A DNA stretch of 64,000 nucleotides. It comes from Oceanotoga teriensis. GTDB lineage: Bacteria > Thermotogota > Thermotogae > Petrotogales > Petrotogaceae. Numbering within the stretch: position 1 is the first letter of the stretch; each line of letters opens with the position of its first letter. Shown in pieces: positions 8,480 through 12,602 of this stretch. The stretch is taken from positions 159,170 to 223,169 of the forward strand of contig NZ_QGGI01000001.1 in assembly GCF_003148465.1 (NCBI RefSeq), read 5' to 3'. The position numbers were made by a program, and so were the translations under genes. The notes beneath the pieces are model-generated. The model was not told where the DNA came from. It ran no database searches and worked only from the letters and a program-made list of their open reading frames with translations.

Positions 8480-8500
8480 ATAACTAATGAGGTGATTATT

Positions 8501-9694
8501 ATTAAAAAAAACATAATATTATTATTTATTATTTTAATAAATATATTTACTTTTTCATATAAATACATATTCTTTTTTATTGGTGATGGAATGGGATTTA
8601 ATCATATTTCTATATCTCAAACATATTTAGAAAAAAATAATGAAACAAATTTAAATTTATACAAATTAGAAAATTTATCAACTTTAAAAACTAATTCTTT
8701 AAATACTGTAACAGATTCAGCAGCTGCAATAACTGCTATGATGTCATTTGAAAAAACCTATAATGAACAGATAAATATAGATAAAGAAGGAAAAAAAATT
8801 TCTCCAATAACCTATCATTTAAAAGATTCCGGATATAAAATAGGTATAATAACCAAATCTTCTATTACTGATGCAACACCTGCTGGATTATATGCAAGAA
8901 CCTCTAATAGAAAAAATCATAAAGAAATAGCTGATCAACTTTTAAAAAGTAATATAGATCTCGCAATTGGTGGAGGAACTGCATTTTTTGATAATGACAA
9001 AATAAAAAATTCGAATTTCAGATATAATAACAGTTTAAAACAAATTCCTTCAGAAGAACAAGAATTAATACTAACTAATTATTCAAATGTTCCTTTTGCA
9101 ATAGATTCAAAAACAAATTATTTGAAACCTGGATTAGAATACGCATTAAAAAAATTTTCAAATGATAATTTCTTTATACTCATCGAAGGTGCAAGAATAG
9201 ATCATGCTTCACATGCACATGATATAAAAACAATGATATATGAAATGTTAGAACTAGACTCAACTTTAGAAACAGCTTTAAATTTTTATAATAAACATAA
9301 AAATGAAACTTTAATAATTTTTACTTCTGATCATGAAACTGGCGGATTATCTCTTGGTGATGGTTTTTTAAGTATTTCTAAAATTGAAGACCAAAAATTT
9401 TCTTATGAAAAAATTGCCAATACAATTAAAAATACAAATAATTATGATGATTTTATAAAAGAAGTAAACATTAAAGGTTTAGAAAAAGAATATAATGAAA
9501 CTAAAAATTCAAAAGATTATACTTACAATTCTCCATTGATAAGAAAATATCTTGATACTATGCAAAAAAAAGCTGGGTTCTCATGGTCAACATATGGTCA
9601 TACTATGAGTAATGTTCCATTATTTTCAGAAGGTTTAAAATATCCTAATTTAGTAGATAATACAAAAATTTTCACTTTCATATTAAATAAATAA
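8501..9694 (+). CDS. Alkaline phosphatase, exported
   Basis: About 397 aa. Family residues are visible: FIGDGMG (metal Asp), TDSAAAITAM (the nucleophile Ser following TD), GARIDHASHAHD, FTSDHETGG and YGHTMSN (metal His/Asp). A hydrophobic signal peptide (KKNIILLFIILINIFTFS) sends it outside. It hydrolyses phosphate monoesters. Start choice: the only conventional start, GTG at 8492, is itself part of the ribosome binding site GAGGTG. An ATT at 8501, six bases after the GTG, sits at the right spacing and gives a standard N-terminus of one residue followed by KKNII, so I place the start there with reservation. Confidence 0.85.
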   Translation: MKKNIILLFIILINIFTFSYKYIFFFIGDGMGFNHISISQTYLEKNNETNLNLYKLENLSTLKTNSLNTVTDSAAAITAMMSFEKTYNEQINIDKEGKKISPITYHLKDSGYKIGIITKSSITDATPAGLYARTSNRKNHKEIADQLLKSNIDLAIGGGTAFFDNDKIKNSNFRYNNSLKQIPSEEQELILTNYSNVPFAIDSKTNYLKPGLEYALKKFSNDNFFILIEGARIDHASHAHDIKTMIYEMLELDSTLETALNFYNKHKNETLIIFTSDHETGGLSLGDGFLSISKIEDQKFSYEKIANTIKNTNNYDDFIKEVNIKGLEKEYNETKNSKDYTYNSPLIRKYLDTMQKKAGFSWSTYGHTMSNVPLFSEGLKYPNLVDNTKIFTFILNK

Positions 9695-9774: not shown

Positions 9775-9802
9775 TTGAAAAATTTTTCTTTTCTTGTATA
9801 AT
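9775..9802 (+). promoter_or_regulatory. Strong sigma-70 promoter for a small RNA
   Basis: -35 TTGAAA (9775-9780), 16-bp spacer, extended -10 TGTATAAT (9795-9802). Predicted start near 9809, exactly at the foot of the first hairpin described next. Confidence 0.8.
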
Positions 9803-9808
9803 GAAAAT

Positions 9809-9916
9809 ACAGAACACTCAAGATGGTTACCCTCCCTCCTGAAGTGTTCTGTCCCCGGAAAATTTTAGTGAATTCTATAATTCACTCATAAAGGCCTTTA
9901 TAAGGCCTTTTTTTTA
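9809..9916 (+). ncRNA. Candidate small regulatory RNA with C-rich anti-SD loop
   Basis: About 108 nt between a consensus promoter and an intrinsic terminator, with no open frame of note. Hairpin 1: perfect 10-bp stem ACAGAACACT (9809-9818) with AGTGTTCTGT (9843-9852), enclosing a 24-nt loop that contains CCCTCCCTCCT (9830-9840). Hairpin 2: AGTGAATT/AATTCACT (9867-9886) with loop CTAT. Hairpin 3 is the terminator. The loop is complementary to GGAGG ribosome binding sites, including 7 nt of AGGAGGG (9968-9974) before the next gene. It resembles the loop-CCC design of Gram-positive sRNAs such as RsaE but is not a family I recognise. The signatures of SRP RNA, 6S RNA and tmRNA are absent. Confidence 0.68.
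9890..9916 (+). terminator. Intrinsic terminator of the small RNA
   Basis: AAAGGCC/GGCCTTT stem extended by two inner A-T pairs, three-base loop, followed by seven or more T. It separates the RNA from the O-antigen-ligase-like gene 65 bp downstream. Confidence 0.85.
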
Positions 9917-9980
9917 TTGTTTTTTTAATAAAAATATGGTAATATTATTATGATAAAAAAATAAATTAGGAGGGTTTGTT

Positions 9981-12602
9981 TTGCAAAATTTAAAAAAAGA
10001 TAAAGAAATATCAATATTTATTTTAATGATATTATTAATACCATTTTTAATGATTCCAAATTTTGTTTACGAATTTTCAACTCAAAAAAACTTAGTCTTC
10101 AGTGTATTTTCATTTATATTATTTTCATATTTTATATTTAAAAAAAATGATGAAAAATTAAACTTTTCATATACTCATTTATTCTTCTTACTATTTGGAT
10201 TCTCTTCTTTATTATCTTTAATATCAGTACAAATTCAAAACCCTTCATACATAAATTATTCTTTAAATGTATCTTTATATATATTTGTAATAATAGGAAT
10301 TTCATTATCTATAACAAATTCATTTGGAAAAAACTTTAAATATATTGAATACGCTTTGATGGCTTTTATAATAACTGGTACAATACTTGCAATAGATGGA
10401 TTATTAAATAAATTTTTAGGATTTGACTTATTTTTTGGTAAAATAGGAGATCCTTCACAAAGAATAACCTTAAGAACAACTATAGGTAATCCTAATTTTG
10501 TATCAGATTATTTAGCTCAAACAATACCACTATCAATATATTTTATATTAAAACCAAATTCAAAATTATATCAAAAAATATATTTATACATAAATATATT
10601 TTTATCTTTTTGGGTAGTTTTATTTGCCCAAACGAGATCTGTATATTTGGGATTCACTGTAGGTTTAATATTTTTCATTTTATCACTATTAATATCTAAA
10701 AAAGATCTTGATTATAAAAAATATTTAATTAGTAAAGATTTCTGGATCAAAATATTTTTACTGATATTCATTTTAGTATTTCTATTTATAATGTTTAATA
10801 CAAATACTATGTTTAATAAATCTGGTGAAGTAAATGCCATCTCAAGATTTTCAGCAATGTCTTCAAAATCATCTTGGGATGAAAGAAATCTTTCTTGGAT
10901 GGTTTCTATTGAACAATTTAAAGATAAAGATTATCCTCTCAATAAAATTATAGGTGGAGGAATAGGCACATATCCAGTATATTCAATAAAATATATGGAA
11001 GAAATACAAGCTAAAAATCCTGAAAAATACTATTATGCTTGGAACAATTTTAAAAGGGCCCACAATGATTATTTACAAGTCCTTGGAGAAACCGGATTAT
11101 TGGGGATAATGTCCATTTCTTTATTGATAATTACTCTTTTAATGAGATACTTTAAAATTTTAAGATCTGATATTGAATTTGAAAAAAAGATCATGATTTC
11201 ACTTTTTGGTTGGATAGCAAGTATAATAATAATACATGCTGCAACTGAATTTGCTTTACATATGCAACCAAATATATTAATAGCTCTTTTTATATTCTCA
11301 ATAGCAATGTCAAAACAATTTAGTAATTCAAATAAAATACTAAAATTTAATCCAAAAATTATATATACCATATTAGTAATAATAACCGCATTTTCAGTGT
11401 TTTTCAAATATAAAGATACCATGTCTGAAGCATATTTTAAACTTGGAGATGCCGAAAACACAAAAATGAATTACTATATAGAAATTTATCAATCTCAAAT
11501 TCCACAGCAAATAACTCAATATGAAAATGAAATAAAAAAAGGGCAAGACTATATAAAAAATATGAATCCTTTTTCTTCAGAATTTAATTCTTTAAAAAAA
11601 CAAATTGATGAATTAAATGAAGGTTTAAAAAAATATAAAAACTTACAAATCGAGTACAAAGAAAAAGCTCATCAATCTTATAAAAAAGCTTTTGAGTACT
11701 TTTTAAAATCATTAGATTTTAATAATAATTTTGGAAAATCTCAATTTTATCTTGCTCAACTATTTTCTGTTTCAGAATTTAGATTAGAAGAAATATTAAA
11801 CACAAAAGATTTAAATGATATATTTGAAGGAAATACTTCTGAATATAAATATATTGTAAAAGACTTTAAAGGTCAAGAAGATCTTTTTCCAATATCAAAT
11901 CCTATAAGAAAAGATGTTTCTAATCTATATAATATTTCTACAACAACTAATGAAAAAAATATATTATTAAATATCCAGATGTTTTATGATCAAATAAATT
12001 ATTTAGAAAGTGCTTTTTTATCATTTAATGAAAAAAATTCTTATAGATTAATATCAAAATTATATTATAATATAATAAAATTATATGATAACATAGAAAA
12101 AAACACAAATAATGAAAAATTGAAAATTGAACTACAAAATAAGATAAAGGAAGATTATAAAAATTTTATTTATTGGAATGAAAAATCAATTTCTATAATT
12201 CCAGGTGGCTGGAATAGATTTCCAGAGTGGGAGAATGTATATTTTGAATACTCATATCTTTCAATAAATTTAATGGGTATAATACCAAGTGATGAAATAC
12301 TTAATAATCTATACAATATATCTAAAAAAGAAGGAAAAGCGAATTATTATATGGCAAAAAAAGATAGAGGAATTCCAGACAAATCTTTAAAACTTTTTAT
12401 AGAACTTTATTTACAAATACCAGATACTCAAATAAGAGAAGATATCACAAAAAATATAATAAATTCATATAATGATGTATATAATTTTTATAAAAATAAA
12501 GAAGAAAAAAATGAAATAAAAAATTCTTATCTAGAAAGATATGAAAGCAGAATAAAAGAATTCTTAGATAATTATGAATATTTCAAAAGAAAAATCGGGT
12601 GA
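9981..12602 (+). CDS. O-antigen ligase/polymerase family membrane protein with C-terminal helical domain
   Basis: 873 aa. The first ~490 residues hold about a dozen membrane helices with a large outside loop containing the Wzy/WaaL signature region (AHNDYLQVLGETGLLG, about 357-372). This region joins or polymerises lipid-linked glycans at the periplasmic face. The remaining ~380 residues are soluble, helical, TPR-like and rich in K, E, N and Y, with a predicted coiled coil at about 505-560. TTG start after AGGAGGG. The SD is complementary to the loop of the preceding small RNA. No glycosyltransferases are nearby, so the glycan acted on is unknown. The next gene starts within its stop codon. 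Confidence 0.83.
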   Translation: MQNLKKDKEISIFILMILLIPFLMIPNFVYEFSTQKNLVFSVFSFILFSYFIFKKNDEKLNFSYTHLFFLLFGFSSLLSLISVQIQNPSYINYSLNVSLYIFVIIGISLSITNSFGKNFKYIEYALMAFIITGTILAIDGLLNKFLGFDLFFGKIGDPSQRITLRTTIGNPNFVSDYLAQTIPLSIYFILKPNSKLYQKIYLYINIFLSFWVVLFAQTRSVYLGFTVGLIFFILSLLISKKDLDYKKYLISKDFWIKIFLLIFILVFLFIMFNTNTMFNKSGEVNAISRFSAMSSKSSWDERNLSWMVSIEQFKDKDYPLNKIIGGGIGTYPVYSIKYMEEIQAKNPEKYYYAWNNFKRAHNDYLQVLGETGLLGIMSISLLIITLLMRYFKILRSDIEFEKKIMISLFGWIASIIIIHAATEFALHMQPNILIALFIFSIAMSKQFSNSNKILKFNPKIIYTILVIITAFSVFFKYKDTMSEAYFKLGDAENTKMNYYIEIYQSQIPQQITQYENEIKKGQDYIKNMNPFSSEFNSLKKQIDELNEGLKKYKNLQIEYKEKAHQSYKKAFEYFLKSLDFNNNFGKSQFYLAQLFSVSEFRLEEILNTKDLNDIFEGNTSEYKYIVKDFKGQEDLFPISNPIRKDVSNLYNISTTTNEKNILLNIQMFYDQINYLESAFLSFNEKNSYRLISKLYYNIIKLYDNIEKNTNNEKLKIELQNKIKEDYKNFIYWNEKSISIIPGGWNRFPEWENVYFEYSYLSINLMGIIPSDEILNNLYNISKKEGKANYYMAKKDRGIPDKSLKLFIELYLQIPDTQIREDITKNIINSYNDVYNFYKNKEEKNEIKNSYLERYESRIKEFLDNYEYFKRKIG

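Follow-up and report, generated by a model that had tools for sequence, protein, structure and literature searches.

A candidate trans-acting small RNA with a conserved C-rich loop beside an alkaline phosphatase gene in the Petrotogaceae

Introduction

The Cuckoo/CcsR RNAs of Alphaproteobacteria (CIN1 locus), which carry a C-rich motif in a hairpin loop, are among the described systems that most resemble the small RNA (sRNA) presented here. The CcsR RNAs are co-transcribed with the gene of a DUF1127 protein and are released from one precursor by RNase E processing (PMC10253847). In Sinorhizobium, NfeR1/alpha-r14 acts in trans through anti-Shine-Dalgarno C-rich motifs located in unpaired regions of its hairpins, of which alpha-r14 has three, each with CCUCCUCCC; the motif is ultraconserved and the stems vary, and it has been shown experimentally that NfeR1 silences ntrB via the unpaired CCUCCUCCC motifs (PMC10746234). 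RsaE/RoxS, from Staphylococcus and Bacillus, carry unpaired UCCC-type motifs, through which RsaE has been proposed to block ribosome-binding sites (PMC9266662).

The window, that is, the whole stretch of 64,000 nucleotides analysed here, comes from a genome of the Petrotogaceae, and an earlier note made from its letters described in it a small RNA gene with a C-rich loop. An AT-rich genome of 2.8 Mb, and a RecG whose closest match is 1gm5, the RecG of Thermotoga maritima, also point to this family of the Thermotogota. To our knowledge, conserved sRNAs of deep-branching thermophilic or anaerobic lineages have hardly been described, and in an Rfam survey the Thermotogae appear with a single sRNA family (PMC9029176).

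Results

Anatomy of the RNA gene

All the parts that had been claimed for this gene (promoter, hairpin, C-rich run, second hairpin and strong terminator) are found at their places, and together with the neighbouring gene they form the following series:

8492..9694, + strand: alkaline phosphatase gene (PF00245, Pfam E 3e-49), constant 5' neighbour of the sRNA
9775..9802, + strand: sRNA promoter, TTGAAA (9775-9780), 16-nt spacer and TATAAT (9797-9802), 11/12 consensus
9809..9917, + strand: sRNA with predicted ends, about 108 nt long (fold z, matches of covariance model R1, no Rfam family)
9809..9852, + strand: hairpin 1, arms 9809-9820 and 9841-9852 enclosing the C-rich loop (93% of cells paired)
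9825..9839, + strand: C-rich invariant loop GGUUACCCUCCCUCC, its apical UUACCCUC predicted fully unpaired (identity, unpaired probabilities)
9853..9860, + strand: second invariant element CCCCGGAA, its CCCC predicted unpaired in all species (identity, unpaired probabilities)
9867..9886, + strand: hairpin 2, variable (12 sequences aligned and folded)
9890..9917, + strand: intrinsic terminator, differing in stem sequence yet kept in every genus (terminator scan, alignment)

The stretch 9809-9916 folds with an energy of -34.6 kcal/mol, against -17.0 +/- 2.9 in shuffled sequences (z = -6.0), none of the 200 shuffles folding as well, and the terminator scan returned one terminator where 0.1 would be expected. 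Hairpin 1 has a length of 10-12 bp. Its loop had been described as C-rich and 24 nt long; it is indeed C-rich, but not all of it is open, for AGG/GG and CCU/CC are predicted to form an inner helix, which would leave about UUACCCUC fully unpaired. Partition functions place UACCCU(C) and CCCC in the open in every species, while the CCU/CUCC part of the C-rich run pairs weakly with the AGG/GG on its 5' side; the accessible seed is therefore mainly UUACCCUC, and not a bare anti-Shine-Dalgarno CCUCC. The element CCCCGGAA, mostly unpaired by prediction, was absent from the earlier description. The accessibility of both loop and CCCC is thus that of modelled structures, in which a conserved and unpaired C-rich seed is present, as in the trans-acting C-rich antisense sRNAs.

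Comparison with known families

At the gathering threshold, Rfam 15 recognises only a tRNA in the window, and its best match to the sRNA below that threshold reaches 22.3 bits when 58.7 are needed, so that the RNA, as had been supposed, has no Rfam match at the threshold or near it. RsaE/RoxS gives no match in a comparison with all Rfam families up to E = 10; what the two have in common is the type of motif, here a UCCCC placed 3' of the hairpin, within a different fold and a different phylum. With NfeR1/alpha-r14 the sRNA shares an anti-Shine-Dalgarno C-rich motif in an unpaired hairpin region, the probable action in trans, and a motif that is kept as the stems vary; however, instead of three CCUCCUCCC hairpins it has a single C-rich hairpin with another motif, UUACCCUCCCUCC, and the CCCCGGAA tail; it belongs to a different phylum, and we claim likeness in kind and not common ancestry. 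It is a C-rich hairpin-loop sRNA like Cuckoo/CcsR, but it is single-copy, has its own promoter and, in place of a co-transcribed DUF1127 gene, has as neighbours the alkaline phosphatase and either a Wzy_C ligase or an rsmD-like gene. The claim that its unpaired C-rich motifs resemble those of known antisense sRNAs is borne out. We take the RNA to represent a new family within a functional kind already described, the C-rich antisense sRNAs; it probably silences mRNAs by pairing with them.

Conservation and distribution

BLAST and the covariance model R1, with a cut-off of E 1e-5 across the phylum, detect a single copy of the sRNA in each of 12 genomes from six genera, all in the window's own family, at covariance-model E-values of 1e-20 to 1e-27, a conservation because of which it must be regarded as more than a chance structure. 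The other 91 genomes searched in the phylum give no covariance-model match at E 1e-5. Two genera of the same family (here g6, with seven genomes, and g8, with two) do not yield the sRNA even in a lax search (best E 0.06), and none of the lax matches inspected in them has a hairpin with a C-rich loop. Outside the family, only weak chance matches appear, such as that of genome G088, which by eye falls in CRISPR-like repeats, and a scan of genome contigs for the pattern GGTTACCCTCCCTC returned, among the matches listed, unrelated organisms only.

Between genera, the mean pairwise identity is 96% in the loop GGUUACCCUCCCUCC and 94% in CCCCGGAA, against 70% in the 5' arm of the stem, 50% in hairpin 2 and, beyond the terminator, 47%. 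To judge by the sequences, a near-invariant loop and tail amid a drifting 5' arm, hairpin 2 and flanks is the pattern that would be expected of seed regions. The promoter is also kept (74%, versus 51% for the spacer upstream of it, on the phosphatase side): in 12/12 aligned genomes TATAAT is identical, TTTG(A) nearly identical, and the distance to the RNA constant. The stem of hairpin 1 shows one two-sided change (A-U to U-A) and several consistent one-sided changes, with 29-52% of positions paired in slid controls. In a first count, covariation did not rise above that of shuffles (180 of 500), because the sequences aligned are few and similar, and the support from covariation is therefore modest. 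Hence, of the conservation anticipated for loop and stem, that of the loop (96%) is clear and that of the stem comes down to a few pair changes. As regards the three-hairpin structure proposed for the relatives, the RNA itself is recovered in the 12 genomes, but not the three-hairpin unit, given that the middle hairpin is dispensable: hairpin 2 is present in genera g1, g2 and g5, with one sequence in g1 and g5 and a different one in g2, whereas g3, g4 and g7 lack it.

Genomic neighbourhood

In 9/9 loci examined, the gene immediately 5' of the sRNA is the same alkaline phosphatase orthologue, on the same strand. This orthologue (E 1e-80 or better) occurs in only the 12 genomes that bear the sRNA, the remaining genomes having more distant phosphatases at most, and no paralogous phosphatase that was checked has such an RNA alongside. 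The constant neighbour suggests a link with phosphate metabolism. Phosphatase orthologue and sRNA are present or absent together across the family (L220-L227).

On the other side, g1, g2 and g5 have a Wzy_C ligase that runs in the direction of the sRNA, and g3, g4 and g7 have a different, convergent gene, which from its sequence we take to be a putative rsmD-like methyltransferase; the syntenic block of phosphatase and sRNA has, then, switched its other flank. With its own promoter and terminator, the sRNA is independent of the downstream gene, as trans-acting C-rich antisense sRNAs are. The earlier claim of an independent small RNA gene is upheld by this promoter and terminator, by the lack of an Rfam match and by the conservation of the loop across genera, and the gene is very probably real, previously uncatalogued and regulatory.

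Target tests at ribosome-binding sites

Pairing was assessed on samples of translation starts, 393 in the window's genome, 311 in G003, which has the sRNA, and 315 in G015, which lacks it, equivalent to about 15-20% of each genome. In these samples the duplex energies of the loop were not better than those of 60 loops shuffled with CCUCC left intact (in the window's genome, ranks 25, 15 and 23 of 60), and among the sampled starts the pairing of loop and ribosome-binding site was no better in the sRNA-bearing genomes than in G015. Nor were the exposed-seed words GAGGGT and AGGGTAA enriched at these starts, and the counts of extended-complement patterns showed no clear excess over a reversed-pattern control. 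Ribosome-binding sites complementary to the RNA are thus not above background in the 393, 311 and 315 genes. The many GGAGG sites to which a global role had been attributed do exist, but any CCUCC would match them, and therefore they carry no weight for that role; global repression as such is not supported, the sites being no better than those of CCUCC-keeping shuffles or of the genome without the sRNA, and target prediction yields no excess over shuffled loops in the sampled starts. Pairing with AGGAGGG at 9968-9974, before the gene at 9981, does exist, but with ordinary strength (rank 72 of 393 sampled), and in half of the genera that gene, which had been singled out as a target, does not even lie downstream of the sRNA.

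Among the sites sampled in the window's genome, that of glgP, GGAGGGAGGAUAUCC, is the strongest, with 13/15 positions complementary to the loop, and in the sRNA-bearing genera the glgP sites reach -19 to -25 kcal/mol (G009, whose start was not located, is excluded). However, the site is equally strong in g6 (-21.7 kcal/mol), where there is no sRNA, and therefore no co-evolution with the sRNA is shown; the site is also strong for the 16S tail (rank 2), and glgP was set aside as a specific target. In three genomes of g3, gltB also has extended complementarity at its ribosome-binding site, with an exact GGAGGGAGGGU; it was likewise set aside, as only five genomes, all of that genus, yielded the gene. 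Autoregulation of the phosphatase was rejected too, its ribosome-binding sites being by eye not notably complementary. The RNA may yet have a small specific regulon, with a few targets.

Two observations on these leaders may be added. The ribosome-binding site of glgP (at L294, ~12249, in the window's genome; relatives compared in L368-L388) is exceptionally long and G-rich, as GGAGGGAGG or GGGAGGG, in 7/8 genera of the family, with or without the sRNA, g8 having a plain AAGGAGG instead. A gltB-like leader in g3 (L035-L037) contains CCGGGG and GGAGGGAGGGUUA, complementary to the tail and loop of the sRNA and in the right order for pairing.

Discussion

The reading that we favour, with a probability of roughly 0.6, is that of a trans-acting antisense sRNA, with its own promoter and terminator, that would act on a limited set of mRNAs and would probably be helped by Hfq. 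A sigma-70-type promoter and an intrinsic terminator would yield a small RNA specific to the family, whose hairpin 1 would display the C-rich apical loop UUACCCUC, with a reach extending into CCUCC once the weak inner helix opens, while the single-stranded CCCC(GGAA) could provide a second contact. The loop would pair with AGGG/GGAGGG at or near the ribosome-binding sites of those mRNAs and so block the initiation of translation, a pairing that Hfq, encoded in 21/21 genomes of the family, would probably assist. Its transcription, pairing, repression and dependence on Hfq we infer from sequence.

Alternative explanations are that loop and tail act away from ribosome-binding sites, as a sponge for another sRNA or as a site for protein binding; the conserved letters would then serve for binding a partner rather than as an antisense seed. 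That the whole 15-nt loop is kept, including GGUUA, beyond what an anti-Shine-Dalgarno core needs, and that complementary ribosome-binding sites are not enriched, agree with such a function; even so we consider it unlikely, as the unpaired C-rich layout is typical of antisense sRNAs and no partner RNA or protein has been identified. It is somewhat less plausible still that the RNA derives mainly from the 3'-UTR of the alkaline phosphatase mRNA, by read-through and processing, and signals the expression of the phosphatase to other mRNAs. In every genome the RNA follows the same phosphatase on the same strand, and the two are absent together, which would suit this origin; against it stand the conserved TTGA/TATAAT promoter at a constant distance upstream of the hairpin and a stretch from phosphatase stop to promoter that is not conserved (51%). 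Both modes, 3'-UTR and own promoter, could exist side by side.

If, on the other hand, the RNA acted in cis on the gene that follows at 9981 (Wzy_C/O-antigen ligase), as its leader or attenuator, its place in g1, g2 and g5, on the same strand and with about 65 nt between terminator and gene, would be suitable and the terminator could attenuate. Yet in g3, g4 and g7 another gene comes next, on the opposite strand, with the RNA core unchanged, and where the ligase does follow it has its own conserved promoter-like TATGGTAATAT; since the downstream gene changes between genera, a leader function is very improbable, and synteny largely refutes it. Scarcely any credence can be given to a role as the mRNA of a short peptide, for which the window offers a 22-codon ATG frame, MVTLPPEVFCPRKILVNSIIHS, because start codon and frame are not shared between genera: in g3, g4 and g7 the frame lacks a start and has a TAG stop immediately ahead of GTT, where g2 is one base short.

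Returning to the antisense sRNA, a more ambitious formulation may be put forward only tentatively, as possible rather than probable: this RNA would be the founding member of a Petrotogaceae sRNA family, a phosphatase-linked, Hfq-assisted repressor with two seeds (UUACCCUC loop and CCCC tail) and conserved targets in central metabolism, such as glgP. If true, this two-seed repressor would represent one of the first conserved trans-acting sRNA regulons known in the phylum. The single copy, the near-invariant seeds, the covariance model and the constant neighbour make sRNA regulation in this lineage, and with it any service of Hfq to sRNAs in Thermotogota, directly testable.

A minor observation concerns the promoter, whose spacer between -35 and -10 contains (9778-9789) GAAAAATTTTTC, a perfect palindrome in the window and in L008 (the corresponding spacers of L008, L009 and L010 were compared); in g3, g4 and g7 the spacer is unusually well kept, as GAGAAAAAAATTTCATGATG, and it might be an operator for some regulator.
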